A stretch of DNA of 37,691 nucleotides, from the NCBI GenBank assembly GCA_024279865.1, contig JAJRRC010000084.1, positions 1-37,691 of the forward strand, written 5' to 3'. Below the pieces are notes generated by a model that was not told where the DNA came from, searched no databases, and was given only the letters and a program-made list of their open reading frames with translations. Source of the DNA: Planctomycetota bacterium. Lineage in GTDB: Bacteria; Planctomycetota; Phycisphaerae; Phycisphaerales; Phycisphaeraceae. Below, one piece after another: positions 4,794 through 36,899 of the stretch (position 1 is its first letter; each line of letters starts with the position of its first letter). Made by a program: the position numbers and the translations under genes.

Positions 4794-4919
4794 AAGTAGC
4801 CGCGTACACAAGCGAAGGGGAAAACTCAATCGCGATTGGTATAATACCGGTTGGCTGAAGCTTTGGAGGGCTTTGGGGAAAGTTGGAGGGAATCGGGGGC
4901 TTCCGGGGCTTCCGGGGGG
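4794..4919 (+). repeat. Intergenic G-rich repeat with G-quadruplex potential and two CTTCCGGGG units
   Basis: This lies in the 324-base gap between the divergent methyltransferase and the M16 peptidase. It starts with AAGTAGCCGCG (4794-4804), shared exactly with 14115-14125. Six G-runs follow at 4868-4870, 4875-4878, 4888-4890, 4895-4899, 4905-4908 and 4914-4919. The last ones are joined by CTTCC, giving CTTCCGGGG at 4900-4908 and again, with GGGGGG, at 4909-4919. The spacing allows a G-quadruplex on the plus (coding) strand just before the M16 ribosome binding site. The gap also holds ATACCC-atc-GGGTAT (4740-4754). Confidence 0.6.
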
Positions 4920-4943
4920 TATTGATAAAAGGAATTTCTTGTG

Positions 4944-7780: not shown

Positions 7781-7896
7781 CGTATTTTTTTGTGGCAATT
7801 GTTTTCTCGTTTTAACAAAAGATAGACCTGCCTAGGAACTTCTTGCTTCGTGATGCGTCTGACCGGAGCAATGACACGCATACGGAAATAGATCCC

Positions 7897-10800: not shown

Positions 10801-13800
10801 ATTCAAACCGACGCACAAGGACGAGCGACGATTGTGTATCGTTATGAAAAAAGTGGGCAGCTTCAGTTTACGTTTGTCACGCCAGACGCTTGGGGGAAGG
10901 CCGTGGAGGGGTATGCGCTTGTATGGGTTTGCGGAGAAGATTTTGATGGCAAGCTGCATCGTTTTAATGATCTGGAAATCATTGCAGACCAGCGAACCTA
11001 TGAGCCCGGCGACGTGGCTCATGTGCTGATCAATACCAAGCAGACAGATAGCTATGTCCTTCTTAGCACCGATGCACAGAATGGCGTTTTACACAATTGG
11101 CAGGTGATCCATGTGCCCGGGCGTAGCCGTATGGTTGAGGTGCCGATTGATGCCACGCAGCGGCCGAACTTTTTTATCGAAGCGACCACCATCGCCAATG
11201 CCCGTGTGTATCAACAGCAGCGGCAACTTTGCGTGCCGCCCGTCAAGGCAGTGCTGGACGTGACCGTGCAGACGGACAAGCCCAATTATCAGCCCGGCGA
11301 AGAGGCCACGGTTTCGGTGACGACCCGTGGGCCTGATGGCAAGCCTGTTTCTGCGCAGTTAACGGTGGGGGCGTTTGACCAATCTCTTCTTTATATTCAA
11401 GGTCAAACCCAATCGCCCATCGCGCGTTTTTTCCACGGCCGCGTCAATCACCATCGACAGCGTTTGACGACCAATTTGTTTGAACAATTTTCAACATGGG
11501 GCGATCTCACACGCCCATTTGAATCGCTTGGCAATATTCCACCTAGCTGGCATGGTTACTGGGGGCCGGCTGTCAGTGATTGGCGTCTGATCAAAGACGT
11601 TCAACTCGGACAGCTACTGGGTCGTCGTCATCACGCGATGGCTTCGGGCCAGATGCGTGTGCGAAAGAGTCTGTCTTCCATGCCCGCCAGTACGCCGATA
11701 CTTGAAATGGCTGCGGATTCGGTGAAGTCAGAAAAAAAAGTAAAACGTCAGAGCAAAAATGAGGCAGATATCTCAGCCAATTCGCCTCCAGCAGCCCCAA
11801 CGCAGGTGCGTGAACATTTTGCCGACACGGCACTGTGGTTAACCACACTCACCACCGATGCTGCCGGCCAGGCGAAGGCCACCTTTGTGGTGCCTGAAAA
11901 CTTGACCACCTGGCAGATTAATACCTGGGCCATGACACAAAAAACCCAAGTCGGCGAAGCGAAGACTTCAACCGTCAGCACCAAAAAATTACTCGTCCGT
12001 TTGCAAACACCACGCTTTTTTACCGAGCGTGATGAAGTCGTTCTCTCTGCCAATATTCATAACAATCTCGACACGCAGCAAACGGTCACCGTGAGTTTAG
12101 AATTGCCCGCCGAGAGGATCACCTTGTTGGACCGGACCACCCAACGTCGGCAAATTGTTTTAGAAGCCCACCATGAAGCACGCGTCGATTGGCGTGTGAA
12201 GGTCAAGCGAGAAGGTGATGTACGTATTGTGGTGAAAGCGTTGGCAGGGGATGCTTCAGATGCGATGGCCATGACGATTCCTGTTTTGGTGCATGGGATC
12301 ATGCGTCAGATCACGACCACCGGTTCGATGCTCCCGGAAGTTATGAACAAGACGATCACGGTGCAGCTGGACGTTCCCAAAGAGCGTCGTCCGGAACTGA
12401 CGACGCTGGAAGTTCGCTTTGCTCCGAGTTTGGTCGGGGCGATGCTCGATGCGTTGCCTTACTGTTTGGATTATCCCTATGGCTGTACCGAGCAGACGGT
12501 GAGCCGTTTTCTCCCGGCCGTCCTGACACGCAAGACACTGCAAAACATGGGAATTAAACTTGAAGACCTCAAGGGGATTGGAGGTCATCAAGATGAAGCC
12601 AAGCGTGCTGGCCATACCTATTTACAGTCCCCGGTTTTTGACCAGAAAGAATTGGATAAAATTGTTGCCACGGGCCTGACCCGAATCAGCTCAATGCAAA
12701 ACAGTGATGGCGGTTGGGGTTGGTGGAAAGACAACCAATCAAATGCTTACCTGACCAGTTATGTCCTCTATGCTCTGATCAGCGCCCAAGAAGCAGGCGT
12801 GCAAATCCATGGCAACCCAATTACCCGAGGCAGTGTCTGGCTCTTTAATCATCTTACACAGGCAATGAATGATAAAACATGGTCACCTCATGCTCAGACT
12901 GCTTTTGTGGCGTATGTGTTGTCCATGTCGAAAAAATCGGGGCCTTGGGTTGAAAAACTTTGGGTCGGTCGGGATCAGCTCAACCTCTATGGCAAAGCGT
13001 TGTTGTGTTTGACGCTGGCGAATCTGGATCAATCGGACAAGGCCACCACCGTCCTGCAAAACATCATGCAGTACCGTCAGGACAATGACCAGACTCAGAT
13101 TACCTGGTTCAAAACACCTCAGAAGGGCTGGTGGTATTGGTGGAACAGTGACATTGAAACCCATGCGTGGATTTTACGGGCCATGGTCAAAGTTGATCCC
13201 AAGCATCAGGCCGCCCCCCGCGTGGTGAAATGGCTCCTGAACAATCGCCGCAACGGCTACTATTGGCAATCCACCCGTGATACCACCTTATGTATTGCTG
13301 CGATAAGTGATTTTGTGAACGCCACGGGCGAAGCAGACCCTGATTTTACTTTGACATTGGATTTTGATGACGGCCAAGTGACCAAAACCGTGCGGATTCA
13401 CCGTGAGAACTTTTTTCATTTTGATAACAAGTTTATCCTCAAAGGTTCTGTCCTGACCAGTGGAAAGCATACGCTTAAAATGACCAAGTCCGGGCGTGGC
13501 GCATTGTATTTCAATACCTATCTAAGCTATTTTGATATGCGTGAACCCATTGCCGCAGCAGGCCACGAATTGCATGTTCAACGAACCTATTACCGTCTGG
13601 AACAAATTCCCTTTGGGGTCGATGTGGATGGCGCCAAGGGACAGGCCGTGGCTGAAAAACGGTTGCGATATCGCAGGATAAAACTGGCTGATGGCGATAC
13701 CATTGCCAGTGGCGACTTGCTACAAGTGGAATTGCGTCTTGAAAGTGACAACGATTACACCTATTTGGCGGTGGAAGATCCCAAGCCTGCTGGCTGTGAG

Positions 13801-14046
13801 CCGGTGGCGTTGCGTAGTGGCGGGAAAGGCCAGGAAGGTTTTCATAGCTACATGGAATTGCGTGATGAAAAAGTCGTCTTTTTCCTCAATAATTTAGGAC
13901 GTGGCGAGCATTTGATGCGTTATCGTTTGCGTGCCCAAACGCCTGGCGTTTTCCATGCTTTGCCCGCGAGGTTATTTGCCATGTACGCACCGAGGCTACG
14001 CGCCAACAGTCATGAGCAGCGGATTCGGATCATTGATGCCGAGTAG
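7897..14046 (+). CDS. Alpha-2-macroglobulin family protein with N-terminal TPR-like region
   Basis: A giant (2049-residue) bacterial macroglobulin that in this family traps proteases at the cell envelope. It starts with a hydrophobic export or anchor segment (MKQKTLLGVTLFLIFGAML), then TPR-like helices (about 25-110 and around 340-370). MG-domain signatures recur: TDRPVYRPGQKMQFK, GYYRPGQQMNLTLQ, KPNYQPGEEATVSV. A low-complexity, Ser/Lys/Ala-rich stretch just before VREHFADTALW (about 1304) is a likely bait region. The thioester motif is present as GCTEQ (C1530-Q1533), followed by the alpha-helical thioester domain (NSDGGWGWWKDNQ). The ATG at 7897 is chosen over an upstream TTG (7843) because it opens directly on the signal-like segment; its ribosome site is weak. 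It lies 196 bases after the M16 gene, on the same strand. Confidence 0.93.
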   Translation: MKQKTLLGVTLFLIFGAMLAATRFPDAEALFNAKNYKQAAEAYAREVKTNPHKASQREILCYLRLQDFDEALKAAHRYLKRTANTVDEAAAQRLVGNLYLALPHWGTRTGGQFYRGQYKQGIRLQSHRHDRALALKHLQKARELYATQKGDLQERMDCLFDLASACTRFGIFENEPHYWFGYWGQRDDTLAQTAGEEDFDEQQNQWQWQRKRPIGLRVDDAGEPMFPPMPKAWADDLAVDQKALFLLAEIRTLDTTSKQTFAKLSWYRQAMLARSRFGMDRANRYRSMLGETDGKGFGPWQLDHDEALILAGGRLRSVTLPTQWNVLSLLEKAKTDQALYAAGLYHQSRQQYSRALASYEALKRNDPRSQWASRASSNASLIRQPQVHLQSSGVQLAGQDAALQVSYRNATKIWFVARKINVVGFLQDIRHQPLDSAKGMREIGALQNWHYYFTRNHGADAWLRTLMDKHLGEEVARWSVDLKPSEDFRHAKAICQTPLRGQGGILVYAFLKEPPVTLPKRYQGDSRAVVLLSDLAVVEKQTDQGRLYFLSDARTGKPVAGADLSIMETWNVWHRQKRQSTHHRKFYQLKTDAQGLALFNQKRNQGSRLYLLTQVKNEQGNRFAYTGMAYWYRALSSSQRNHSQAYCMTDRPVYRPGQKMQFKIWLRQWREGQWHNLPQQAVSLAIHDPRGNKIKSLSLRTDPYGAIHAQLPLNKEATLGLYRIQIHGYNQVTGNTFRVEEYKKPEFEVTVKPNTTHAQLGQTLKATIHGQYFFGQPVTHATVQYKIYRQTYQHRQYPQGRWNWLYGQGYGLTWYESPWFDWWPRARHCFIAPNWWYGFTKPVRELVRQGTGQLDDKGNLTVSINTAAALRDHPDQDHQYTIEAEVRDQSRRVIVGQGQIKVTRQAFFAFVQPDQGYYRPGQQMNLTLQCVSPDGKPVQTQGILSIKAVTWGGPNNADLDATLLETRTIQTDAQGRATIVYRYEKSGQLQFTFVTPDAWGKAVEGYALVWVCGEDFDGKLHRFNDLEIIADQRTYEPGDVAHVLINTKQTDSYVLLSTDAQNGVLHNWQVIHVPGRSRMVEVPIDATQRPNFFIEATTIANARVYQQQRQLCVPPVKAVLDVTVQTDKPNYQPGEEATVSVTTRGPDGKPVSAQLTVGAFDQSLLYIQGQTQSPIARFFHGRVNHHRQRLTTNLFEQFSTWGDLTRPFESLGNIPPSWHGYWGPAVSDWRLIKDVQLGQLLGRRHHAMASGQMRVRKSLSSMPASTPILEMAADSVKSEKKVKRQSKNEADISANSPPAAPTQVREHFADTALWLTTLTTDAAGQAKATFVVPENLTTWQINTWAMTQKTQVGEAKTSTVSTKKLLVRLQTPRFFTERDEVVLSANIHNNLDTQQTVTVSLELPAERITLLDRTTQRRQIVLEAHHEARVDWRVKVKREGDVRIVVKALAGDASDAMAMTIPVLVHGIMRQITTTGSMLPEVMNKTITVQLDVPKERRPELTTLEVRFAPSLVGAMLDALPYCLDYPYGCTEQTVSRFLPAVLTRKTLQNMGIKLEDLKGIGGHQDEAKRAGHTYLQSPVFDQKELDKIVATGLTRISSMQNSDGGWGWWKDNQSNAYLTSYVLYALISAQEAGVQIHGNPITRGSVWLFNHLTQAMNDKTWSPHAQTAFVAYVLSMSKKSGPWVEKLWVGRDQLNLYGKALLCLTLANLDQSDKATTVLQNIMQYRQDNDQTQITWFKTPQKGWWYWWNSDIETHAWILRAMVKVDPKHQAAPRVVKWLLNNRRNGYYWQSTRDTTLCIAAISDFVNATGEADPDFTLTLDFDDGQVTKTVRIHRENFFHFDNKFILKGSVLTSGKHTLKMTKSGRGALYFNTYLSYFDMREPIAAAGHELHVQRTYYRLEQIPFGVDVDGAKGQAVAEKRLRYRRIKLADGDTIASGDLLQVELRLESDNDYTYLAVEDPKPAGCEPVALRSGGKGQEGFHSYMELRDEKVVFFLNNLGRGEHLMRYRLRAQTPGVFHALPARLFAMYAPRLRANSHEQRIRIIDAE

Positions 14047-14060
14047 CTGCGTGCGTGGGG

Positions 14061-14230
14061 CGTAGAGCGTTTTGCATAAATACTTACCACCTCTGACTAG
14101 GTGAGTCGTATAAAAAGTAGCCGCGCGCTAACAGCGTGGCGTCTGGGCGGGGCGGGCGCATCCGGGGCGCATCCGGGGCGCATCCGGGGGCGCATCCGGG
14201 GGCAAGAAATGATGTAGGATACGCTCTACG
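14061..14230. repeat. Putative miniature element: 10-bp inverted repeat around G-rich tandem array
   Basis: CGTAGAGCGT (14061-14070) is repeated inverted as ACGCTCTACG (14221-14230). The right arm overlaps the stop codon of the minus-strand methyltransferase. Between the arms lie a small hairpin (CACCT-ctgact-AGGTG), the box AAGTAGCCGCG (14115-14125) also found at 4794-4804, and the tandem array. The layout resembles a small non-autonomous element, but no target-site duplication is obvious. Confidence 0.4.
14158..14203 (+). repeat. Four tandem GCATCCGGGG(G)C units
   Basis: Units are 14158-14168, 14169-14179, 14180-14191 and 14192-14203; two have four Gs and two have five. The core CATCCGGGG differs by one base from the CTTCCGGGG micro-repeat found elsewhere in the window. 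The preceding GGGCGGGGCGGGC adds more G-runs, so the plus strand can form a G-quadruplex between the two convergent genes. Confidence 0.85.
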
Positions 14231-14852
14231 ATGGTTTTTGCATCACAATTGTCGCGTCATGGCCTAGATCAAAATAATCTTGCCGAAAGACGACTTGCCA
14301 TGTTTGTTGCATTGCCCAGTCCAAGAGTTTGAAGGTGGGTAAGCGGCGGGCAAAGTGATCCTGTAAAGGCGCATCACGGTGACAGGTGTCTGCCAAAAAG
14401 TTGAAGATGAGTGTTTGCTCCGTAGCATCCCACGCGTTGGCCAAGAGGGTGAAAGCTTGTTGGTCGGTCATGGTGTTGAGCGTGCCGCTGAGGCAGATAA
14501 TTTGCGGATTGTCTGTGCGCAGTAGCTGTGGGTTGGCCAGAAAATCGCCACAGGTAAAAGAGGCTCGTGGCAATTGACGGGTCTTGGCAAAATCGATGGC
14601 CTCGGGCAGCCCGTCGATTCCTGTGTATTGAGCGTAGGCCAAGCCTTGTTCAAGAAGCCAGGCAGCCAGATCCCCGCGGCTGGCACCTGCATCTAAAACA
14701 CGCTTGTCTTGGAAATAAACGAGTTCTGAAAAAACGCGAAACCGTCGAAATTGACTATCACGGTTGGCCCACAATGTCACGCCAAAACCCGGGCCATGTT
14801 CCGAGGCCCATTGGTGGTAAGGCGTTAAATAATGGTTCGCTGACTCGTCCAT
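14226..14852 (-). CDS. Class I SAM-dependent methyltransferase
   Basis: A 208-residue methyltransferase. Motif I is RVLDAGASRGD (about 51-61), strand 2 ends at TGIDGLPEAI (D80), and the middle strand reads DNPQIICLSGTLNTM. The rest shows the usual alternating helices and strands. It shows no clear similarity to the methyltransferase at 3831-4619 beyond the fold. The substrate is unknown. No convincing Shine-Dalgarno is seen before the ATG at 14852. It is the last gene of a minus-strand run and starts 31 bases after the permease stop, so it is probably co-transcribed with the ABC transporter genes. Its stop codon overlaps the inverted repeat at 14221-14230. Confidence 0.8.
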   Translation of the reverse strand: MDESANHYLTPYHQWASEHGPGFGVTLWANRDSQFRRFRVFSELVYFQDKRVLDAGASRGDLAAWLLEQGLAYAQYTGIDGLPEAIDFAKTRQLPRASFTCGDFLANPQLLRTDNPQIICLSGTLNTMTDQQAFTLLANAWDATEQTLIFNFLADTCHRDAPLQDHFARRLPTFKLLDWAMQQTWQVVFRQDYFDLGHDATIVMQKPS

Positions 14853-25109: not shown

Positions 25110-26176
25110 ATGACCCGCCTGTTGCATTCATTTTTCCTTATTCTGGCTCAAAGTACCCACGATGAGCTTATCCAGAAAGTCCAATATCTCAAAATAGAAA
25201 ACCAAATCCTGCGAGACAAGTTGCCCAAGAAGATCAGTATTACGCCAGCTGAGCGAAGGCGACTTCTCAAGTTCGGCAAACTCGTGGGTTCTGCCATCAC
25301 AGAATTGATATCCATCGTACACCCCCGCCCCCGGGACCTTTGCAAGATGGTTGTCTGACGAAAAGAAAAGCAAGACCCTTGTGAGAAGAGGGCGGCCTAG
25401 AACCCGGTTGGATGTTCGGCAATTCGTTCTTCGCCTAGCAGCAGAAACTGGATGGGGGGACTTCCGGGGGTAGCCGTATTCTGGGCGAGTTGAAGAAGCT
25501 GGGGCTGGGCAAGATTGGACGCACCACCATCCAGAATATCCTCAAAGAGGAGGGCTACGACCCAGGACCGAAGCGGGGCGTTGGCACATGGGATGAGTTC
25601 ATTAAGCGACACGCAAAAACCTTGTACGCCTGCGATTTCCTGTCCAAGAAAATCTGGACCAAACGTGGCCTCGTTGAGTACTTTATCTTGGCCTTTATTC
25701 ATGTCGATAGCCGACGGGTTTGGGTCTCTTCTGCCACAGCGCATCCCACGGGCCAATGGGTGGCTCAACAAGCTCGAAATTTTTGTATTTGTCTTGATGA
25801 ACAAGGCTTGTCCATCACGCATCTGATCCGAGATCGTGACGGTAAATTTGTCAGCAAGTTCGATCTGATTCTTAAAGCCCAAGGCTCGGCAATCATCCGA
25901 TTGCCCATCCGAAGTCCGAATTTGAACGCTTATTGCGAGCGATTTGTACAAACGCTCAAACACGAATGCTTGAACCATTTTGTGGTGTTGGGCGAGAAGC
26001 ATTTGAATTACCTTGTCTACGAATTCGTTGCCTATTATCACGCTCATTGGCCACATCAAAGCAAAGGAAATTTGCCATTGACTGGCTCGGATTTTCCCAC
26101 GCTCACCGAAGGCGATATCCATTGCGATGAACGGCTTGGCGGGTTGGTGAAGCATTATTATCGCAAGGCTGCATAA
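25110..26176 (+). pseudogene. Integrase-type (DDE) transposase broken by two G/C-rich micro-insertions
   Basis: A transposase of an integrase-core family spread over three frames. Frame 1 (25110 to about 25325) has THDELIQKVQYLKIENQILR, a coiled-coil/helix-turn-helix start, and ends at HPR. Frame 2 (25336 to about 25458) reads TFARWLSDEKKSK, RRGRPRT and LRLAAETGWG. Frame 3 (25472-26176) reads SRILGELKKLG onward and holds the catalytic core with D (ACDF), D (IRDRDGKF) and E (NAYCERFVQT), ending LGGLVKHYYRKAA. At the first junction CCCCCGCCCCCGGGA replaces a shorter codon stretch (about +7). At the second, GACTTCCGGGGGT stands where one Tyr codon is expected (+10). With both removed the protein would be about 350 residues and continuous. 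No terminal repeats found. Confidence 0.85.
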
Positions 26177-26255
26177 TCGCTTCGACTCTTTTCCTGTCAT
26201 CCTGCCTGACCACTAAAGCAAAGCAAAAAATTGATACGGTTGAATTGCGCCCATC

Positions 26256-29200
26256 GTGAATTGCCGTGGCTGCTCCCTCCAATATTCATCGAAATCTGTG
26301 ACAACGCTGGTTGATTATTCGTTAGGCAAGGTCCGATCCGGTCTGGATTTACCGAGGGCATCTTTTTCGAACAGGACGCCTGATGGCCGTCAATCGACGA
26401 TTACAGACCTGCGGACCCAGACCGCTGGTAACACGGTTTATACCTACAACGATGCAGACCAGATCGTCGCTGTCACAACGGTAGACCCAGATGCTGCCCC
26501 CGGAAGCAATGGTCCCTTAACTGCTCAAACTACCCGATTCACCTACGACAGCATGGGCCGTCAAACGCGCATCGAACAGCCCGACGGCACCTTGCAGCAT
26601 CGTGAATATAACTACCGCGGCCAACTCGCCAAATCCTATGGCACAACTGGCTACCCCGTGCAATACACCTATGACACCCAAGGTCGTCGCAAAACCCTGA
26701 TCACCTGGAAAGATTTCAACCAGGACACCGGGACCCCCGGGATCGGCGTCTCCGGCAAGGCCACCACCACGTGGCACTACAATCCCTATCGCGGCTTCCT
26801 CGACAGCAAAATCTACGACGACGGCAAAGGTACTGCATATACCTACACCAATGCCGGTCGCTTACAAACCCGCACCTGGCAACGGGGCGTCACAACGACC
26901 TACGCTTATGATCCCGCAGGCCAACTGCTCAGTGTGGACTACTCCGATACCACGCAAGATATAGCCTACGTCTATGATCGCCTTGGCCGCCGCCAAAGCA
27001 CCATCGACGCAGCCGGGTTGACCAGCTACGCCTATCTCGACGGTGCCAATAACCTCGTAACTTCTATGACTGTCACCCCTGGAAGCACGGTTTCAGGCAC
27101 CCCCGGAAGTTCGGACACTCTCACAGGCACACAGCTCAGCTACGCCTATGATGCCCAGCTTCGCCGTCAAAGTGTGACTGCTTCCCGCCTCGTCAATAGC
27201 GTGATGACTTCCTATCACACGACTGGCTACACCTACGACGCAGCCTCTCGCCTGAGCACCGTCACCGATGGCACCAACTTTGCCACCTACAATTACCTTG
27301 CCAATTCAGGCAACATGATCGACAATGTGGTTTATGCAGTGGATACGAATTTGACCGATGGCCAACAATTACCAACGACAAACATGTTCACCACAACCAA
27401 AACCTACGATCAACTCGGCCGCTTCGTTAGCCACCAGTCTGTCCGCACGTCAGATAGTGCGGTCCTCTCAAGCTACGGCTACACCTACAACAAGCAAGGC
27501 CAACGCGCCCAAGCTCAAATGACCGACGGCAGCTATTGGGATTATCAATATGACCCGTTAGGTCAGCTATCCGGTGCGGCCAAGTTTGCTCCCGGGGGCG
27601 GGGGCAAAATCCTTCCCGGCTATCAATACAACTACCAATACGACCAGATTGGCAACCGCACCAAAGTATCCACTGGCGGCGATCCCTTCGGCCTCAACCA
27701 ACGTGATACCACCTATCAATCCAATACGCTCAACCAATACACCCAGATCAACAATCATCCCTACGTGAGCGTCCTTGGGCAATCCCAACAGGACGCGACG
27801 GTAACTGTGCAACTCGATAACACGCAGCCCATCAAGTCGGGCAGTACCCAGCAGACCACCGCTGGCACATTCATCGCTCAAACGACCCGAACCGCTATTC
27901 CCAACACGACTGACGCTGCCTTCTATGCAGAATTGGAAGTAGATACAGGTTCCGGGGCCGGGGGAACTTCCGGGGGGCGGGCTGAATTGGACCTAGCCGT
28001 CACAGGCGTTCGCAATGCCCAAGGCCCCAACGGCGAAGATGCCATCGACACCAAAACCATCACCCGCCAAACGCCTGCGCTATTGGTTACACCCACCTAT
28101 GACGACGATGGTAATCTATTAAGCGATGACCGCTGGACCTACGTCTACAATGGCGAAAATAGATTGGTAGAGTTAATCCCTCAACCTGTTTACCATGCTG
28201 ATAGCCAGATATTAATGAAGCGATTGACGTTTATCTACGATAGCACGGGCCGTCGCATTGAAAAACGTGTGTACAGTTACAACACAGTGACGTTGCAGCA
28301 CGACACGCTCGAAGCCGTGACTCGCTATGTTTATGATGGCTGGTTACTCATTGTCGAGCTAACTCCTGCCGCGATTGTTGCCAACGAACCCACTGGCGAT
28401 TTGTCTCCGCTACGAACCTACACCAGTGGCCTCGATATCTCCGGCACGCCCGAAGGAGCAGGTGGCATCGCAGGCCTGCTCTTCACCCGCACCATCAACC
28501 CAACCAGCGACGATGATGTGTACGCCTACTGCTACGATGGCAATGGCAACGTGACTGATTTAATCAACATCCCCACCCCAACAGCCATCACCGCAGGCAC
28601 ACAAGTCGAGGTAAATGCAACCTATGAATACTCCCCCTTTGGCCAGCTAATCCGCGTCACGGGTGCTGCCGCCGATGCCAATCTTTTCCGCTTCAGCACC
28701 AAGTACACCGATGCGGAAACAGGATTCTGTTACTACGGGTATCGGTACTATGATTCCGTGTGGGGCAGGTGGCTGAATCGGGATCCGATTGAGGAAGATG
28801 GAGGGGTGAACGTTTATGGTCACTCTATAAACAATCCAAACAATAATTATGATGTGTTAGGGTTGAGTCTAATAACTCTTGATGTTCCCGCGACACAGAC
28901 TAAGTGTCAACTTGCATTGCAATGGATTTCTATGATGGCTAAGGGATCAACTATTGGTCTTTTGACCACTACGAATTCATTGCTTTGGCATCATTATTTG
29001 TATGGGAATGGTGCTCCAATGACTTTAGATATGAGTAGATTTGATCGCTTTAGTGCGACTAGAAATGGTATTGCAAGAGATATTTGGGAAATGGAGAACA
29101 ATTCTATTAAACTTGGAATACAGAATTTGCCATGTTCGCAAAGAAAAATGCTGTTCAGTGGGTATGGAACATGGCAGGGCTTGGCCTTGCCAAGTTATAT

Positions 29201-29294
29201 GATTCTTAATTATCAAATGAAGGCAAATTACTTGATTCAGGCAAAAAAGAATGTGGTAAAAAAGGTTGCTGTACGCGGATTTTTGTACGTCTAA
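26256..29294 (+). CDS. 5'-truncated Rhs/YD-repeat protein with variable C-terminal tip (copy 1)
   Basis: A 1012-residue frame. Only the part from about 26393 is Rhs; the first 45 codons are unrelated, so the annotated start is uncertain and this is probably a displaced 3' fragment. The core has many YD repeats (YTYDTQGRRKTL, YAYDPAGQLLS, YVYDRLGRRQS) and ends with the hallmark FSTKYTDAETGFCYYGYRYYD and GRWLNRDPIEE. After that the sequence becomes AT-rich and unrelated to copy 2: a tip of about 150 residues with NNYDVLGLS, then WHHYLYGNGAPMTLDMSRFD and six-A runs. This is the standard polymorphic-toxin layout, a shared shell and a swapped effector tip. The tip's activity is not recognised. A small membrane protein follows, a candidate immunity gene. 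Confidence 0.8.
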   Translation: MNCRGCSLQYSSKSVTTLVDYSLGKVRSGLDLPRASFSNRTPDGRQSTITDLRTQTAGNTVYTYNDADQIVAVTTVDPDAAPGSNGPLTAQTTRFTYDSMGRQTRIEQPDGTLQHREYNYRGQLAKSYGTTGYPVQYTYDTQGRRKTLITWKDFNQDTGTPGIGVSGKATTTWHYNPYRGFLDSKIYDDGKGTAYTYTNAGRLQTRTWQRGVTTTYAYDPAGQLLSVDYSDTTQDIAYVYDRLGRRQSTIDAAGLTSYAYLDGANNLVTSMTVTPGSTVSGTPGSSDTLTGTQLSYAYDAQLRRQSVTASRLVNSVMTSYHTTGYTYDAASRLSTVTDGTNFATYNYLANSGNMIDNVVYAVDTNLTDGQQLPTTNMFTTTKTYDQLGRFVSHQSVRTSDSAVLSSYGYTYNKQGQRAQAQMTDGSYWDYQYDPLGQLSGAAKFAPGGGGKILPGYQYNYQYDQIGNRTKVSTGGDPFGLNQRDTTYQSNTLNQYTQINNHPYVSVLGQSQQDATVTVQLDNTQPIKSGSTQQTTAGTFIAQTTRTAIPNTTDAAFYAELEVDTGSGAGGTSGGRAELDLAVTGVRNAQGPNGEDAIDTKTITRQTPALLVTPTYDDDGNLLSDDRWTYVYNGENRLVELIPQPVYHADSQILMKRLTFIYDSTGRRIEKRVYSYNTVTLQHDTLEAVTRYVYDGWLLIVELTPAAIVANEPTGDLSPLRTYTSGLDISGTPEGAGGIAGLLFTRTINPTSDDDVYAYCYDGNGNVTDLINIPTPTAITAGTQVEVNATYEYSPFGQLIRVTGAAADANLFRFSTKYTDAETGFCYYGYRYYDSVWGRWLNRDPIEEDGGVNVYGHSINNPNNNYDVLGLSLITLDVPATQTKCQLALQWISMMAKGSTIGLLTTTNSLLWHHYLYGNGAPMTLDMSRFDRFSATRNGIARDIWEMENNSIKLGIQNLPCSQRKMLFSGYGTWQGLALPSYMILNYQMKANYLIQAKKNVVKKVAVRGFLYV
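26393..28796 (+). repeat. Long direct repeat, Rhs core copy 1
   Basis: Closely similar at base level to 31558-33932, from ATGGCCGTCAATCGACG to the codons for DPIEE. This copy is 29 bases longer. The differences cluster at G/C-rich tracts (26497, 26734, 27592) and at one non-G-rich site (28362-28410). A substrate for recombination, deletion and tip exchange. Confidence 0.9.
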
Positions 29295-29463
29295 ATATTC
29301 ATTTTAGTGCCTCTGATATTACGAATTTTGATAATGGAAAAAGTTTTAATTACCTAGGAATGACAATTACAGACGATTTGGTTAACGCCTGTGGGCTTGG
29401 TGTTGATTTTTCAATCACAGCAACAAGCAATGAAAATAGCGATAGAATTTTTCCATGTAAGTA
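29241..29463 (+). other. Out-of-frame continuation of the copy-1 Rhs tip
   Basis: After the stop at 29292-29294, the -1 frame stays open to TAA at 29461-29463. It reads NIHFSASDITNFDNG, NYLGMTITDDLVNACGLGVD and ends SDRIFPCK, a protein-like composition. Two A_AAA_AAG heptamers in the zero frame (29243-29249 and 29258-29264) lie just before the stop and would allow a -1 shift into this frame. Either the tip is normally longer and has a one-base indel in a six-A run, or it is made by slippage. Confidence 0.5.
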
Positions 29464-29493
29464 ATTTACATAAAATTTAATTTGGATTAGAAT

Positions 29494-29787
29494 ATGAAAA
29501 AAGTTCTATGTGTAACATTATTGATGTATTTAATTAATATATTTTTTATGGCATTAGACGTCAAAAATCTTCCCGTGAGTTTTATGGCCTATGCTGACTA
29601 TGTGGCCTATGTGGGATGTTTTTTTGTGATCATGGGATGGCTGTTTAGTATAATTCTTTTATTTGTTTCAACGATAAAAACAGGCAATGGCAAAAATGTG
29701 AAAATACGCAATGTTTCGGCCGTAGTTGCGATATGTTGGTTTCTATTTCAATTTGTGATTCTAAATATTAGTGCGTTTCAGCGGTGA
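29494..29787 (+). CDS. Small membrane protein, candidate immunity to Rhs tip 1
   Basis: A 97-residue hydrophobic protein with three predicted membrane segments (about 3-20, 31-56, 75-93) and a basic loop (TIKTGNGKNVKIRN). It starts 30 bases after the end of the extended tip frame and shares its AT-rich composition. Its position directly after a variable Rhs tip is where cognate immunity genes lie, and membrane immunity often goes with pore-forming or membrane-acting toxins. The function is inferred from position only. The Shine-Dalgarno is weak. Confidence 0.6.
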   Translation: MKKVLCVTLLMYLINIFFMALDVKNLPVSFMAYADYVAYVGCFFVIMGWLFSIILLFVSTIKTGNGKNVKIRNVSAVVAICWFLFQFVILNISAFQR

Positions 29788-29810
29788 AGGAGCGGAGGAG
29801 CGGAGAAATA

Positions 29811-29870
29811 GAAAGGGGGAAGAAAAGGGGGAACAGAAAAGGGGGAACAGAAAAGGGGGAACAGAAAAGA
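29811..29870 (+). repeat. Purine-rich tandem repeat (AGAAAAGGGGGAAC)x3
   Basis: Three exact 14-base units (29821-29834, 29835-29848, 29849-29862) are preceded by GAAAGGGGGA and followed by a partial unit. Four G5 runs separated by 7-9 bases could fold as a G-quadruplex. They lie between the small membrane gene and the second Rhs gene. Confidence 0.85.
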
Positions 29871-29956
29871 AACTATGAAAGCCGTGTCTCCCGGTGAGCG
29901 GTGATTTTTGGGATCATATATCCCGTCAGTTATCGCGGGCTTCAAGCTTGTTGCTT

Positions 29957-29982
29957 GGCAGAGGAAAAGGGCAGAGGAAAAG
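29957..29982 (+). repeat. Tandem 13-mer GGCAGAGGAAAAG x2
   Basis: Exact copies at 29957-29969 and 29970-29982. The second runs into the left arm of the hairpin at 29978-30041. It belongs to the same purine-rich repeat cluster. Confidence 0.8.
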
Positions 29983-30041
29983 GGGACATTCTACTTTAAT
30001 GGAGCGAAAAAAAGATGAAAACAAGTAGAATGTCCCCTTTT
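29978..30041. repeat. REP-like hairpin: 19-bp perfect inverted repeat around the Rhs start codon
   Basis: AAAAGGGGACATTCTACTT (29978-29996) pairs exactly with its complement at 30023-30041, with a 26-base loop. The sequence type resembles palindromes linked to REP-associated (IS200-like) transposases. The ATG that opens the second Rhs frame (30015) is in the loop, and the right arm encodes residues 4-9. The element thus seems to have replaced the true 5' end of the Rhs gene. Confidence 0.8.
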
Positions 30042-33000
30042 CTTGACCCGACCAATCTGGTAACCACCACCAAAGTGTATTACGGCGGAGCCAAAGATGG
30101 CGAAGTTCACAGTATCACCTATCCCGACGGTCGTGTGTATGTGAGTCTGTCCAGTGAAACCCTAAACCCTTACGGCAACGGCGGCACGCTGACCACTTCT
30201 TATTCCGGCGTCCCCAATGATGCTGCCAATCCCACCTCCGTCATCAAAGGCACGAAAAATGAAGTCTATGAAGATGCTCAAGGACGCACTGCCTGGTACA
30301 AGACGTATGACGTCGAAACCGGTGTGTTGCTTTCTCATACCCAAAACACCACATTCGATTCCGCTGGGCGAGCGATACGCAGCGATGATCTTGTGCGTGG
30401 CACCTACACCACCAGTTCCTATGGCTGCTGTCAGCTTGACGCAACAACCGACGAATTGGGTATCGCCACCAGCTTTGGCTACGACGCACTGGATCGTCGT
30501 GAAACAGTCACCCGCAACGGCATCACCTTTTACACCACTTATGACGTGGCAAATCGTCCTTTGACCCAATCTCGCATTGATACCAATAGCCAAGCGGTTC
30601 TTCAGAGAACCATGACCTATAATTTATCAGGCCGTCTGCTTAGCAGTACCGATGCCTTGGGGAATATAACAACTTACACAGAAAGCCGTGATCCCCAAGG
30701 ACGTCGTGTTGAAACCGTTACAAACCCCGACGGCTCGACCGTGGTTAATACTTACAACCAGGACGACACGCTTTACAAGACTTCGGGTAGTGCCACTGCA
30801 ACCACGTTCTACGAATATGGCGTAGCCGTCGCTCCGATTGAAAACGCGCCCACGCTCCAATACGCCAAAGTCATTTCCATGGGCGATAATGGTGTTCAGA
30901 CCCAATGGGAGATGACCTTCACGGACATGCTTGGCCGCACGGTTTGCACGGTCTATGCAGATGCCACCCCCGCTGATCTAACAGACAATCCCATGGCACG
31001 TCTTTATTATGATGATACTTCGGGCCCCGGGGGCGGGGGTGGCCGCTTGCTTAAACAGGTCGATCCTGATGGCGTGACCACGCTCTACGGCTACAATGCT
31101 GACGGCGAACAGGACATCACTGCCATCGACCTCAACAGCAACGGCATCATCGACTACGGCATCGACCGCATCACCAAATCTGCCTCACTGCTCCTCGCTC
31201 AAGGCACATTGGATAACACCGTGGCCGTCCGTCGTAGCGAATCCTACGTTTGGACGGATAGCGATCTGGTCTCTACCGCTGGCACACTGACGAGCTACAC
31301 CGAATCTTCAATTGATGGCTACCAAACGTGGTCTGTGACGGTTGCTGCTGGGGCGACTTCCGGGGGTGCTTCCGGGGGGCTTGTTTCGCACACTCAAACC
31401 GTGCTTGATCGAGCTGCGCAGACTCAAACTACCACTTCCACCAATCCTGATGGAAGCTATACCGTCTCCATCACGACCAATGGCTACCTTCAGTCTTCTA
31501 CTTCTTATGATGCTAATGCTGTGATTCTCACGCAGCAGACTTACGCTTACGACGCGCATGGCCGTCAATCGACGATTACAGACCTGCGGACCCAGACCGC
31601 TGGCAACACGATTTATACGTATAACGATGCAGATCAGATCGTCGCGGTTACAACGGTGGATCCGGATGATGCCGGTCCTTTAACTGCCCAAACCACGCGG
31701 TTCACCTACGACAACATGGGACGCCAGACGCGCATCGAACAGCCCGACGGAACCTTGCAGCATCGTGAATATAACTACCGAGGCCAACTCGCCAAGTCTT
31801 GGTCTTCCGGGGGCGGCTACCCTGTGGAATACACCTACGACACCCAAGGTCGTCGAAAAACCTTGGTCACTTGGAAAGATTTCAACCAAGCCACCGGCAC
31901 CGGCGTCTCCGGCAAGGCCACCACCACATGGCACTACAATCCCTATCGCGGCTTCCTCGACAGCAAAATCTACGACGACGGCAAAGGGACTTCGTACACC
32001 TACACCAATGCGGGCCGCTTACAAACCCGCACCTGGCAACGGGGCGTCACAACGACCTACGCTTATGATCCCGCAGGCCAACTGCTCAGCGTGGACTATT
32101 CCGATACCACGCAAGATATAGCCTACGTCTATGATCGCCTTGGCCGCCGCCAAAGCACCATCGACGCAGCAGGGTTGACCAGCTACGCCTATCTCGACGG
32201 GGCGAATAATCTTGTTACGTCCATGACCGTGACCCCCGCCCCCGGGGGGGGGGCCGGAACCCCCGGAAGTACCGATACCCTGGCAGGCACACAGCTCAGC
32301 TACGCTTATGATGCCCAGCTTCGCCGCCAAAGTGTCACCGCTTCCCGCATGGTCACTGGTGTGATGACCTCCTATCACACGACTGGCTACACCTACGATG
32401 CAGCCTCTCGCCTGAGCACCGTCACCGATGGCACCAACTTTGCCACGTACAATTACCTTGCCAATTCAGGCAACATGATCGACAATGTTGTTTATGCAGT
32501 GGATACGAATTTGACCGATGGCCAACAATTACCAACGACCAACATGTTCACGACAAGCAAAACCTACGATCAACTCGGCCGTTTTACCCATCATCAGTCC
32601 GTGCGTGCTTCAGACGCTGCCGTGCTGTCGAGCTACGGCTACACCTACAACAAGCAAGGCCAACGCGCCCAAGCTCAAATGACCGACGGCAGCTATTGGG
32701 ATTATCAATATGACGCGTTAGGTCAGCTATCGGGTGCAGCCAAGTTCACATCAGCAGGCACGATTTTGCCTGGCTATCAATACAACTACCAATACGACCA
32801 GATCGGCAACCGCACCAAGGTTTCCACCGGCGGTGATCAGTTCGGCCTAAACCAGCGTAATACCACCTATCAATCCAACCTACTTAACCAGTACACCCAG
32901 ATCAACAATCATCCCTACGTGAGCGTGCTGGGCCAATCGCAACAGGACGCGACGGTGACCGTGCAACTCGACAGCACACAACCGATAAAACCCGGTAGTA

Positions 33001-34532
33001 CCCATCAAACCGCTGCCGGTACACACATCGCTCAAACGACCCGAACAGCGATTCCCAACACGACCGATGCAGCCTTCTATGCAGAATTAGAAGTTGATAC
33101 CACTTCCGGGGGCGGGGGAACTTCCGGCAACCGTGCGGAAATCGACGCCACCGTCACTGGCGTTCGCAATGCTCAAGGCCCCAACGGTGAAGATGCCATC
33201 GATACCAAAATCATCACCCGCCAAACCCCTGCATTACTGGTCACGCCGACCTATGACGACGATGGCAATCTGACCAGTGATGACCGTTGGACCTATGTTT
33301 ACAATGGCGAAAATAGATTGATCGAACTGCTACCTAAACCGGTCTACCGGGCTGATGGCCAGATACTAATGAAGCGTTTGACGTTTATCTACGATAGCAC
33401 CGGCCGTCGTATTGAAAAACGGGTGTACAGTTACAATACCACCACGTTGCAGCACGATACCTTGGAGGCCGTGACTCGTTATGTTTATGATGGCTGGTTA
33501 CTCGTTGCCGAGCTAACTCCCGAACCAAGCGGCGACCTGACCCCGCTCCGCACCTACACCCACGGCACCGACCTCTCCGGCACACCCGAAGGAGCTGGCG
33601 GCATCGCAGGCCTACTCTTCGCCCGCACCGTCAATCCGTCCAGTGACGATGAGGTACACGCCTACTGCTACGATGGCAATGGCAACGTGACTGATTTAGT
33701 CCACATCCCCACGCCCGCAGCCATCACCGCAGGCACACTTCCGGGGGTGGCGGCCAATTACGAATACTCCCCCTTTGGCCAGCTAATTCGCGTCACCGGC
33801 ACAGCTGCTGATGCGAACCCCTTCCGCTTCAGCACCAAGTACACCGATGCCGAGACAGGATTCTGTTACTACGGGTATCGGTACTATGATACCGTATGGG
33901 GCAGATGGCTGAATCGCGATCCGATTGAAGAAAAGGGCGGAGCTGGACTCTATGTTTTTGTTAATAATTTGCCTGTCTTTAAAGTTGATTATTTGGGGCT
34001 CTTTTTGGGTCCAGATCCAAATAACACGATAAATGCAAACCTGTCAAGTTGCAGAGTTCGTTTTAATCGATGCCGAACAAGAGGGGGGACTAAAGCTATG
34101 TGCCAAAATCGATTGAAAATTTGCTTTTCGACGTTTATTGGAGGTATTACGCCTGCATCTAATGCTTCTTGTTGCTATCCCAAATCCTATACTTATGCGT
34201 TCTCAAATGCTAATTGCTTTTGCAAATGTGCAGGTAATACTCTTTGGTCTATGGTTGTTCGCAGTTGCTTGAGGAAATCATATGTATCCGGTGCGACTCC
34301 GTCCGGAGGGCATCTGAACTGCTATAAATATGCAAGTCTGATGGGATATCGTATGCCATTTACAAAACTTGGGGCCTGTTATTCTAAATGCAATTTGGCA
34401 CCGGGACTGATTAAGTTGCCATGGCAAATACTTAAAGCTCAGTTACAGGCAATAAGCCAGAGTCTCCGAACATGGAATGTGTCTAAATCACCTGTGAATA
34501 AACGGAATCCAATTCTACGGTCATCGCCGTGA
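30015..34532 (+). CDS. Rhs/YD-repeat protein with cysteine-rich C-terminal tip (copy 2)
   Basis: A 1505-residue YD-repeat protein. Repeats run from about residue 85 to 1290 (SFGYDALDRRETV, YAYDAHGRQSTI, YAYDPAGQLLS). The Rhs hallmark FSTKYTDAETGFCYYGYRYYD then GRWLNRDPIEE comes at about 1275-1310. The remaining ~190 residues are AT-rich, unrelated to copy 1, and contain more than a dozen cysteines (CRVRFNRCRTRG, SCCYPKS, NCFCKCAGN), suggesting a disulphide-rich or metal-binding effector. No signal peptide or N-terminal delivery domain is present. The start lies in a REP-like hairpin loop, so the gene looks 5'-truncated. Several G-rich micro-repeats are read as Ser/Gly or Pro/Gly stretches. 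Two related membrane proteins follow. Confidence 0.85.
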   Translation: MKTSRMSPFLDPTNLVTTTKVYYGGAKDGEVHSITYPDGRVYVSLSSETLNPYGNGGTLTTSYSGVPNDAANPTSVIKGTKNEVYEDAQGRTAWYKTYDVETGVLLSHTQNTTFDSAGRAIRSDDLVRGTYTTSSYGCCQLDATTDELGIATSFGYDALDRRETVTRNGITFYTTYDVANRPLTQSRIDTNSQAVLQRTMTYNLSGRLLSSTDALGNITTYTESRDPQGRRVETVTNPDGSTVVNTYNQDDTLYKTSGSATATTFYEYGVAVAPIENAPTLQYAKVISMGDNGVQTQWEMTFTDMLGRTVCTVYADATPADLTDNPMARLYYDDTSGPGGGGGRLLKQVDPDGVTTLYGYNADGEQDITAIDLNSNGIIDYGIDRITKSASLLLAQGTLDNTVAVRRSESYVWTDSDLVSTAGTLTSYTESSIDGYQTWSVTVAAGATSGGASGGLVSHTQTVLDRAAQTQTTTSTNPDGSYTVSITTNGYLQSSTSYDANAVILTQQTYAYDAHGRQSTITDLRTQTAGNTIYTYNDADQIVAVTTVDPDDAGPLTAQTTRFTYDNMGRQTRIEQPDGTLQHREYNYRGQLAKSWSSGGGYPVEYTYDTQGRRKTLVTWKDFNQATGTGVSGKATTTWHYNPYRGFLDSKIYDDGKGTSYTYTNAGRLQTRTWQRGVTTTYAYDPAGQLLSVDYSDTTQDIAYVYDRLGRRQSTIDAAGLTSYAYLDGANNLVTSMTVTPAPGGGAGTPGSTDTLAGTQLSYAYDAQLRRQSVTASRMVTGVMTSYHTTGYTYDAASRLSTVTDGTNFATYNYLANSGNMIDNVVYAVDTNLTDGQQLPTTNMFTTSKTYDQLGRFTHHQSVRASDAAVLSSYGYTYNKQGQRAQAQMTDGSYWDYQYDALGQLSGAAKFTSAGTILPGYQYNYQYDQIGNRTKVSTGGDQFGLNQRNTTYQSNLLNQYTQINNHPYVSVLGQSQQDATVTVQLDSTQPIKPGSTHQTAAGTHIAQTTRTAIPNTTDAAFYAELEVDTTSGGGGTSGNRAEIDATVTGVRNAQGPNGEDAIDTKIITRQTPALLVTPTYDDDGNLTSDDRWTYVYNGENRLIELLPKPVYRADGQILMKRLTFIYDSTGRRIEKRVYSYNTTTLQHDTLEAVTRYVYDGWLLVAELTPEPSGDLTPLRTYTHGTDLSGTPEGAGGIAGLLFARTVNPSSDDEVHAYCYDGNGNVTDLVHIPTPAAITAGTLPGVAANYEYSPFGQLIRVTGTAADANPFRFSTKYTDAETGFCYYGYRYYDTVWGRWLNRDPIEEKGGAGLYVFVNNLPVFKVDYLGLFLGPDPNNTINANLSSCRVRFNRCRTRGGTKAMCQNRLKICFSTFIGGITPASNASCCYPKSYTYAFSNANCFCKCAGNTLWSMVVRSCLRKSYVSGATPSGGHLNCYKYASLMGYRMPFTKLGACYSKCNLAPGLIKLPWQILKAQLQAISQSLRTWNVSKSPVNKRNPILRSSP
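31558..33932 (+). repeat. Long direct repeat, Rhs core copy 2
   Basis: Counterpart of 26393-28796, about 5.2 kb away in the same orientation. Local changes include CTTCCGGGGG at 31804 and 33738 and a ten-G run at 32244-32253, where copy 1 has other sequence. Confidence 0.9.
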
Positions 34533-35639: not shown

Positions 35640-36899
35640 ATGTTGATTCGTCGTTTTTCTTTATTGTTTTTTGTCGTAGCGATGTTCTTGATGCCCACGA
35701 CTTCGTTTGGTTGGGTGAAGTTCTATGAAAGTGAACATCGCATTGATGCCAAGCCTGAGGATACGCAGATTCACGTGGAATATCGGTTTGCCAACAAGGG
35801 TGACAAGCCGGTAAAAATCCTATCCTTGGAATCTTCCTGCGGCTGCACCACGCCCAAACTAGACAAAAAAATCTATGAGCCAGGCGAACGAGGCAGGATC
35901 AAAGTGACCTTCGATATTGGAACCCGCGAAGGTTGGCAGCAAAAGACGATCACCGTAAAGACCGATGATCCCAAGACGCCGTTGAAAGTGCTCAAGCTGA
36001 CGGTGAACATTCCCGTGATTGCCCGGTTTGGCCCCAAAACATTGCAGTGGACCACCGACAAAAAAAGTGGCCCACGCATCCTGCGATTCTCCGGCAAGCC
36101 TGATTTAGAGATCAAAGTGGTCGAGCTGGATTACGATCATGCTGTATTACAGGTCAAGGAATTACCCACGGAAAGAGAAAATGACCGCACGTGGGCTGTG
36201 CTACCTAAGGATCTGAGCAAGGCCACGCAAAGCACCCTGCGCATCAAGACCAACTTCCCCGCAACAGCTCCCAAAGAATATATCGTGGTGGTCAAAGTGA
36301 CCAAGAAAACCCCCGTCCCCGGAAGTGCCCATGGCAACGCTACTACCCAGCCTGCCCCCGGTACCCCCGGCTCCCCCGGTTCCCCCCGTGCCGCCAAGAA
36401 AGCTTTAAAATCTCAAAACCCGATGGCACAATGGATGCACAAGGTTTTCACTGGCAGCGACGAAATACCCTTGCGCCTAGATCAACGCATGGTAATGTTC
36501 GCTCCCTATGCAGGCCCTCAAATTCGTTACGTCAGTGGCGTGGTACAAACAGCCGATCCCATTGAAATTCAGCGTGTGGAAGTCAAGGGTCTTGACTACT
36601 GCAAAGCCGAACTGATGCCCCTGGACTGGGATGGCTATTTCCTGATCAAATTCACCATGCAAGAAAAACCCAAAGAGACCAAGGCCGACAAAACTGCCGA
36701 GGGAAAGGCAACCCCGTCTCAGGCAGCGTCTTCACAGCCAGCCAAAAAGAATGCCAAGCAAGTGATGCCCAAGCGTGGGAAAATCCTGATCTACACCAAC
36801 CCTCCCGCACCGGTGCCAACCCCAGTCTATGGCTTCGTGCATCAACCACAATTCCCCATGCATCAGCAACATAAACATGAAACACAAAATTCCCCTTAA
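35640..36899 (+). CDS. Exported DUF1573-domain protein with Pro/Gly linker
   Basis: A 419-residue protein with a signal peptide (MLIRRFSLLFFVVAMFLMPTTSFG, about 1-24) and a DUF1573 immunoglobulin-like domain (about 28-125). The domain carries its signature ANKGDKPVKILSLESSCGCT (about 51-70) and YEPGERGRIKVTFD. Domains of this kind are common in exported planctomycetal proteins. A second, related beta-rich part spans about 260-345. Between them is a linker at about 224-253 (TPVPGSAHGN, then PGTPGSPGSP), encoded by CCCCGGAAG and repeated CCCCCGG words, the same micro-repeat seen in the Rhs genes. A Lys/Ala-rich stretch and a His/Pro/Gln-rich tail follow. Role unknown; envelope location inferred from the signal peptide. 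Confidence 0.85.
   Translation: MLIRRFSLLFFVVAMFLMPTTSFGWVKFYESEHRIDAKPEDTQIHVEYRFANKGDKPVKILSLESSCGCTTPKLDKKIYEPGERGRIKVTFDIGTREGWQQKTITVKTDDPKTPLKVLKLTVNIPVIARFGPKTLQWTTDKKSGPRILRFSGKPDLEIKVVELDYDHAVLQVKELPTERENDRTWAVLPKDLSKATQSTLRIKTNFPATAPKEYIVVVKVTKKTPVPGSAHGNATTQPAPGTPGSPGSPRAAKKALKSQNPMAQWMHKVFTGSDEIPLRLDQRMVMFAPYAGPQIRYVSGVVQTADPIEIQRVEVKGLDYCKAELMPLDWDGYFLIKFTMQEKPKETKADKTAEGKATPSQAASSQPAKKNAKQVMPKRGKILIYTNPPAPVPTPVYGFVHQPQFPMHQQHKHETQNSP

Follow-up and report, generated by a model that had tools for sequence, protein, structure and literature searches.

Hyper-iterated uptake sequences have been described from the Neisseriaceae and the Pasteurellaceae in the papers cited here, and whether such words originate by drive, selection or copying is debated in them. 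These papers describe the DNA uptake sequences (DUS) of the Neisseriaceae, such as GCCGTCTGAA, as words of 10–12 bases with hundreds to thousands of copies in coding and spacer DNA (PMC2397512, PMC3630211), often placed opposite gaps in other genomes (PMC2397512) and over-represented in the core genome. For the uptake signal sequences (USS) of the Pasteurellaceae, such as AAGTGCGGT, the papers report a sharp core of 9–10 bases (PMC1939737) and copies judged not to be insertions (PMC1626085), and exact copies are said to outnumber those with a single mismatch. Other short iterated words are the cyanobacterial HIP1 (GCGATCGC), a hyper-iterated, lineage-specific and patchy palindrome linked to methyltransferases, for which the abstract of PMC4390886 mentions no insertions, and the G-quadruplex heptamer repeats (GGGNATC) of Xanthomonas and Nostoc, described in PMC4692102 as genome-wide tandem arrays, preferably of four units, that are under-represented in coding regions. 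Here, we report a comparable word from another phylum, the decamer CTTCCGGGGG. The window, i.e., the whole 37,691-nucleotide stretch analyzed (contig JAJRRC010000084.1 of a Phycisphaeraceae planctomycete, assembly GCA_024279865.1), contains 11 copies of it, nine within two Rhs open reading frames (ORFs). With sister species that carry the word and sister species that lack it, this would offer an independent test case for the question of origin.

The decamer is like DUS in its length, in its hundreds of copies, in its presence in both coding and spacer DNA and in that part of its copies face gaps in other genomes, and it is unlike them in sequence and phylum, in its tandem and insertion mode and in its patchiness within genera. 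DUS also occur as inverted terminator pairs, and these were not seen in the sample of the window's own genome (G000). With USS it shares a short, sharp core, a similar drop in excess from zero to one mismatch, and gains by substitution in conserved proteins, here observed in genome G026. It resembles HIP1 in being hyper-iterated, lineage-specific and patchy, but it is not a palindrome. The GGGNATC repeats are likewise short G-rich units with tandem copies; however, decamer clusters are mostly single, and the copies lie mostly in genes in G000 (88/142), G006 (35/47) and G026 (21/26), though not in G015 (27/68) or G030 (3/12). Rickettsia palindromic elements are palindromes of 100–150 bases inserted in frame into protein genes; the decamer is like them in its in-frame insertion and unlike them in being a non-palindromic 10-mer.

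Using the same pattern read backwards as the abundance control, we found 660 copies of the decamer in G000 (3,422,653 letters, 3.42 Mb; assembly 95.7% complete), split 352 to 308 between the strands, versus two of the reversed control. The k-mer and frame statistics for this genome come from a sample of 791,032 letters, window included, and the k-mer, frame and mismatch counts for the other genomes from samples of 60–329 kb each. Called genes make up 83% of the G000 sample, and 54 of its 142 copies (38%) were outside them. When 10-mers were ranked by the excess of exact over near-miss forms, the decamer was first in G000 (of 20,359), G026 (of 5,457) and G006 (of 5,091), second in G015 (of 1,534) and third in G030 (of 109). 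Relative to a first-order Markov expectation, the excess at zero, one and two mismatches was 72, 1.6 and −0.1 in G000, and 45–83, 0.9–2.8 and −0.3 to 0 in G006, G015, G026 and G030. This drop from zero to one mismatch is similar to that of the Haemophilus (183, 2.0 and 0.2) and gonococcal (392, 4.8 and 0.65) uptake sequences, as reported in PMC1939737. Single-mismatch forms were enriched 1.9–3.8-fold in the five genomes, the exact and one-mismatch copies (expected one-mismatch copies in brackets) being 131 and 137 (52) in G000, 77 and 77 (28) in G006, 65 and 77 (40) in G026, 68 and 85 (36) in G015, and 12 and 29 (8) in G030. Apart from those at the first base and some others, single-base variants in the G000 sample were about as frequent as expected, and the flanks showed a preference for A immediately before the decamer and G-rich surroundings. 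There is good support for a real, sequence-specific DNA signal in a large part of the family. No clear candidate for an alternative hyper-iterated word, or dialect, was found in seven low-copy samples (G046, G052, G047, G005, G003, G057 and G034).

Some other words were also over-represented: CTGATAGCT/TCAGCTATCAG in G000, ACTGATAGGAAA/AATTTCCTAT in G026, CGCTAATCACAC in G034 and GGTGCCACACA in G015. In addition, CCAAGGG-type stretches, such as CCCAAGGGAAA, sometimes directly precede the decamer in the G000 sample, with 10 of 57 matches followed by TTCCGGGG or a run of five G within 25 bases, which suggests that some copies belong to a longer composite element.

Next, the in-gene copies were compared with a protein-level null, in which synonymous codons were permuted within genes in 50 rounds. 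Observed copies and summed shuffle means were 88 and 2.9 in G000, 35 and 2.0 in G006, 27 and 1.1 in G015, and 21 and 1.5 in G026. Five of the six reading frames exceeded the maximum of all the shuffles in G000, four in G006 and three each in G015 and G026; the frames that did not beat all shuffles hold one to three copies each. A simple codon-usage origin of the decamer was ruled out by this shuffle. It is the DNA word, and not the encoded protein, that is favoured.

The two Rhs genes of the window record how such copies arise. Core copy 1 (26385–28796, plus strand) is inside an ORF at 26256–29294 (1012 aa) and core copy 2 (31560–33932, plus strand) inside an ORF at 30015–34532 (1505 aa), both with RHS_repeat (PF05593). 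The cores share 87–88% DNA and 90% protein identity, values for which the term near-identical, used in a preliminary description of this stretch, is generous. Beyond this pair, a search of the assembly for other Rhs copies gave only one decayed fragment of 224 bases (contig C61, 31751–31974; 80% DNA identity, two internal stops) and six short matches to the G-rich unit. Since only this fragment remains, the outgroup was L009, an Rhs protein from a metagenome-assembled genome of a Phycisphaeraceae bacterium (67% protein identity). Base-level alignment under three gap schemes and codon alignment with the outgroup contained every difference that the preliminary description had listed (gains of 12, 9 and 6 bases, an extra codon, a ten-G run and an equal-length replacement at 33738), together with one that it had omitted, an 18-base gap at 28367 of copy 1 without a G/C tract. 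The proposed link between indels and G/C tracts also held: five of the six net gaps overlapped a tract of five G or five C, when the random mean was 0.37 and none of 20,000 random placements reached five. All six gap sizes were multiples of three, as had been claimed, and selection on the frame accounts for these sizes, but not for the build-up of the unit in both orientations and in genes as well as outside them.

Four of these gaps are gains, because L009 has none of the extra codons. In copy 1, 12 bases (four codons) were gained at 26499 with CCCCCGGAAG, the plus-strand form of a minus-strand decamer copy at 26497–26506 (APGSN); nine bases (three codons) at 26735–26736 with CCCCCGG, where the minus strand has the variant CCCCCGGGAT at 26734–26743; and six bases (two codons) at 27591–27593 with CCCGGGGGCGGGGG, where the plus strand has the variant CCGGGGGCGGGGG at 27592–27604. 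In copy 2, one codon was gained near 31804–31809 with a plus-strand decamer at 31804–31813. The fifth tract gap (27084/32241), where copy 2 has the ten-G run (32244–32253) and one extra codon, is not polarisable, since L009 is itself gapped at this place; the run belongs to a minus-strand composite at 32233–32269 made up of CCCCCGCCCCC, the ten-G run and a decamer at 32260–32269. A minus-strand copy at 27100–27109 of copy 1 (TPGSS) is common to copy 2 and stands beside or in a stretch that L009 lacks, its placement varying between alignments. The plus-strand decamer at 33103–33112 of copy 2 (TSGG) is older, as its site is common to L009. Copy 1 has a plus-strand decamer at 27967–27976 (TSGG), where copy 2 and L009 have just CTTCCGG, with the full decamer 15–18 bases upstream. 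At 33738–33747 (plus strand; LPG, codon position 1), copy 2 has a decamer as an equal-length replacement, with the same length as copy 1 and L009. Upstream of the common core, Rhs ORF 2 carries CCGGGGGCGGGGG again at 31027–31039 (plus strand) and a 12-base tandem pair of plus-strand decamers at 31357–31366 and 31369–31378 (TSGGASGG), the first of them in a gap of L009. The unit behind the G/C-rich differences is the exact decamer, accompanied by variants such as GGGGGCGGGGG. The earlier account of in-frame micro-repeat indels is thus supported in part: its proper object is this word rather than generic G/C tracts, and the word is also gained by substitution.

Beyond Rhs, we compared decamer sites with homologues of the encoded proteins, taking the best ORF per place, counting each place once and merging copies within 60 bases. 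The survey used homologues already fetched, some of them distant, and many sites had no testable partner. Among 63 comparable sites, 30 were in alignment gaps, versus 5–7% for positions drawn at random from these alignments: 14/24 in G000, 4/6 in G015, 4/13 in G006 and 8/20 in G026. The difference between G000 with G015 (18/30) and G006 with G026 (12/33) is only suggestive (Fisher P 0.08). A first-pass tally of 89 site-by-ORF rows (41 insertions, 38 without gap, 10 mixed) includes antisense shadow ORFs and separately counted tandem copies. Distant homologues can affect the score, as one of the four sites in a DapL-like gene of G026 was scored as gapped when compared with a G000 protein of 24% identity and was gapless against 6oxm. 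In G000, the unit lies within a nine-residue insert of HypD relative to 2z1d, at a three-residue insert of riboflavin synthase (RibE), in an insert ahead of the C-terminal end of DapF, in an unaligned stretch between two domains of DnaA, and in a loop of MiaB from which it is absent in all of 29 other orthologues. A different MiaB loop, slightly lengthened by several residues, bears copies in G006 and G014, and the proteins of G014 and G026 have a copy without a gap at the conserved site LPG(A/V)ELATDIICGF.

Gapless gains were also found elsewhere. The DapL-like gene of G026 contains four decamer copies in four frames, and none of the four sites shows a gap relative to the diaminopimelate aminotransferase 6oxm; around the copy in LigA of the same genome (QLDPRK), the alignment to 2owo is likewise free of gaps. 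Between G014 and G244, which are species of the same genus, three sites differed in aligned pieces of 68–82% identity. One substitution leaves the peptide TPGR unchanged, another gives VPKEV/VPPEV, and the third site is an insertion that seems to follow directly on a stop codon. This comparison is unpolarised, and two more G014 copies had no aligned partner. Decamer sites thus have two modes of origin, substitution within conserved proteins and the insertion of short in-frame stretches.

The 37 Phycisphaeraceae genomes, G000 included, had from 3 to 1180 copies, and 21 of them had 51–1180. Among 201 genomes drawn from the order, high numbers were also found in family f6 (e.g., 267 in G210 and 135 in G204), and in f2 there were 143 copies in G205 and 109 in G252. 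Outside the order, none of the 143 sampled genomes of the phylum with at least 20 copies exceeded four times its own reversed control. ComEC (PF03772) was found in 54 of 61 genomes, including G000. As an explanation of copy number, ComEC presence was rejected: there was no tracking, and low-copy genomes mostly have the protein.

The reading we prefer, tentatively and at somewhat less than an even chance, is that the decamer is a recognition sequence of the uptake type, which owes its spread to biased uptake with recombination and is here often inserted into loops and spacers. A DNA-binding component of the cell would favour fragments bearing the decamer; it would most likely belong to the machinery of DNA uptake, for example as a pilin-like receptor. 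Biased uptake, acting as the drive, and homologous recombination would then spread each new copy, and the insertions would stem from slippage or recombination at existing units. Copies in G000 sit in protein loops, linkers and spacers, so that gains appear as in-frame indels in the two Rhs cores. As with known uptake sequences, no strand preference was seen in the covered parts of two chromosomes, those of G030 and G009. Pattern searches of the 791 kb G000 sample found one PilB/PilT-type ATPase and ten prepilin-like ORFs.

Several observations weigh against an uptake sequence. The same searches gave no match for DprA or ComEA, and genomes negative for ComEC still have copies of the decamer (G009 80, G010 62, G019 5, G028 479, G031 4, G035 51 and G051 3). 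Nine of the 11 window copies are in Rhs genes, which are usually accessory, while neisserial uptake sequences favour the core genome. About half of the comparable sites are in gaps, unlike those of the Pasteurellaceae as judged in PMC1626085. Also unlike USS, the exact copies never exceed the one-mismatch copies in raw counts, although they do after chance subtraction in four of the five genomes, and two-mismatch forms were without enrichment in the five sampled genomes. Abundance is patchy within genera, with 109 copies in G252 and 0 in G263 of g201, and 80 in G009 and 3 in G036 of g10. Moreover, the copies in the covered part of G030 are clustered below 1.5 kb (12 gaps vs. 4.8 expected), and inverted pairs within 20 bases numbered zero in G000, zero in G015 and one in G006 in the samples.

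A bolder form of this proposal is doubtful: the decamer may mark a third independent uptake-sequence lineage, in the Planctomycetota, whose signal enters essential proteins mostly as very small in-frame insertions, spreads in this way and reshapes loops of proteins such as DnaA, MiaB, HypD and Rhs. If so, the genome's own sexual tag would be reshaping protein loops. The insertion mode also suggests a DNA-level process that adds peptides to housekeeping proteins.

The main rival is a copied, selfish micro-element, in which an enzyme copies and inserts a unit of about 10–12 bases, often in tandem, and selection retains the copies that are in frame or in spacers. We consider it unlikely, though tandem copies, gain by insertion and patchiness within genera fit it almost as well as they fit an uptake sequence. 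It would account for the 30 of 63 sites in gaps, for the strong consensus and for the frequent 12-base tandem spacing in the G000 sample (18 of 34 direct spacings up to 60 bases), but not for the 33 sites outside gaps or the substitution gains within conserved codons. Moreover, no target-site duplication was seen by eye at the Rhs gains, and the flank preferences are weak. The two could also be combined.

Less probable is a site for recombination or for a nucleoid protein, Chi-like or architectural, kept by selection on chromosome function. A word that is short, sharp, G-rich, hyper-abundant and conserved across genera would suit such a role. Chi sites are co-oriented with replication, but no clear orientation bias of this type was seen in the tested parts of the G030 and G009 chromosomes. 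In G030, both strands over about 1.86 Mb, a coverage whose completeness is inferred from listing order, gave 41 plus and 40 minus copies in random order (runs z −0.33). Among the matches listed for G009, 25 were plus and 40 minus, again in random order (runs z −0.2), with 19/25 in 0–2 Mb and 6/15 in 2.0–3.1 Mb (P 0.08). The near-absence of the decamer from sister species would also be odd for a core function.

Mutation alone, by G-tract slippage and tandem duplication filtered by the reading frame and by the tolerance of Gly/Ser/Pro linkers, is already disfavoured and quite improbable. It would explain the long G runs beside TTCC in G000, the tandem copies, the location of inserts in loops and the preference for the SGG and PGS frames (63 of the 88 in-gene copies of G000). 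However, the same decamer is found in five genomes of 51–62% G+C (G000, G015, G006, G030 and G026), in which the length of the G run behind TTCC peaks a second time at exactly five; of the seven genomes sampled for this, the peak was weaker in G057 and none was seen in G034. Slippage also leaves unexplained the substitution gains in conserved codons and the copies that are single and dispersed in nearly all clusters of G006 (45/46) and G026 (26/26); single-copy clusters were 38/51 in G015 and 12/12 in G030.

A shade less probable again is a HIP1-like system, in which a modification enzyme targeting the decamer and mismatch repair create and preserve exact copies. PMC4390886 describes HIP sequences as hyper-iterated, patchy and tracking methyltransferases; they are palindromic and the decamer is not, and insertions of 9–12 bases would not be expected from repair-driven conversion. 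Selection for the encoded peptide as a flexible linker, rather than for DNA, is very improbable despite the dominance of the SGG and PGS frames in G000, and is already contradicted by the copies outside genes. Against it also is that, in five of the six frames of G000, none of the 50 synonymous shuffles reached the in-gene count.

In the literature, a full-text search for the decamer and its complement gave, by title and among the papers listed, no planctomycete or repeated-word paper. Likewise, no paper was found that joins a DNA uptake sequence with planctomycetes or natural transformation with Phycisphaer-, and broader searches gave, by title, no paper on such a word in planctomycetes.

Outside the Rhs genes, the window has a plus-strand decamer at 4909–4918, in the spacer ahead of the ORF at 4941–7700, and another at 25461–25470, just upstream of an integrase-like ORF (25490–26176) and also within a doubtful minus-strand ORF (25397–26200). 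The spacer between the ORFs at 7843–14046 and 14226–14852 holds a tandem of variants, CCGGGGGCGCATCCGGGGG, at 14184–14202 (plus strand), and a 9-base tandem of a decamer variant, of the CCCCCGGTA type, at 36355–36387 (minus strand) encodes PGTPGSPGSP in a DUF1573 protein. Searches of the window against Rfam at the gathering threshold and for tRNA genes found nothing. In G014, a repeat of about 0.42 kb (contig C9, 1990–2415) matched more than 30 further places of the same genome, with 40 of 850 candidates scored. Rhs copy 1 is without the upstream part of the ORF, as its match to copy 2 begins at 26385, shortly behind an ORF with an integrase core (rve_3). The C-terminal parts of the two Rhs ORFs diverge beyond 28796 and 33932, as in Rhs tip polymorphism. 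Finally, a perfect 20-base inverted repeat, GAAAAGGGGACATTCTACTT, with arms 26 bases apart, spans the start of Rhs ORF 2 at 29977–30042 and resembles transposase-associated repeats, and a 14-base tandem repeat lies ahead of it at 29816–29872.

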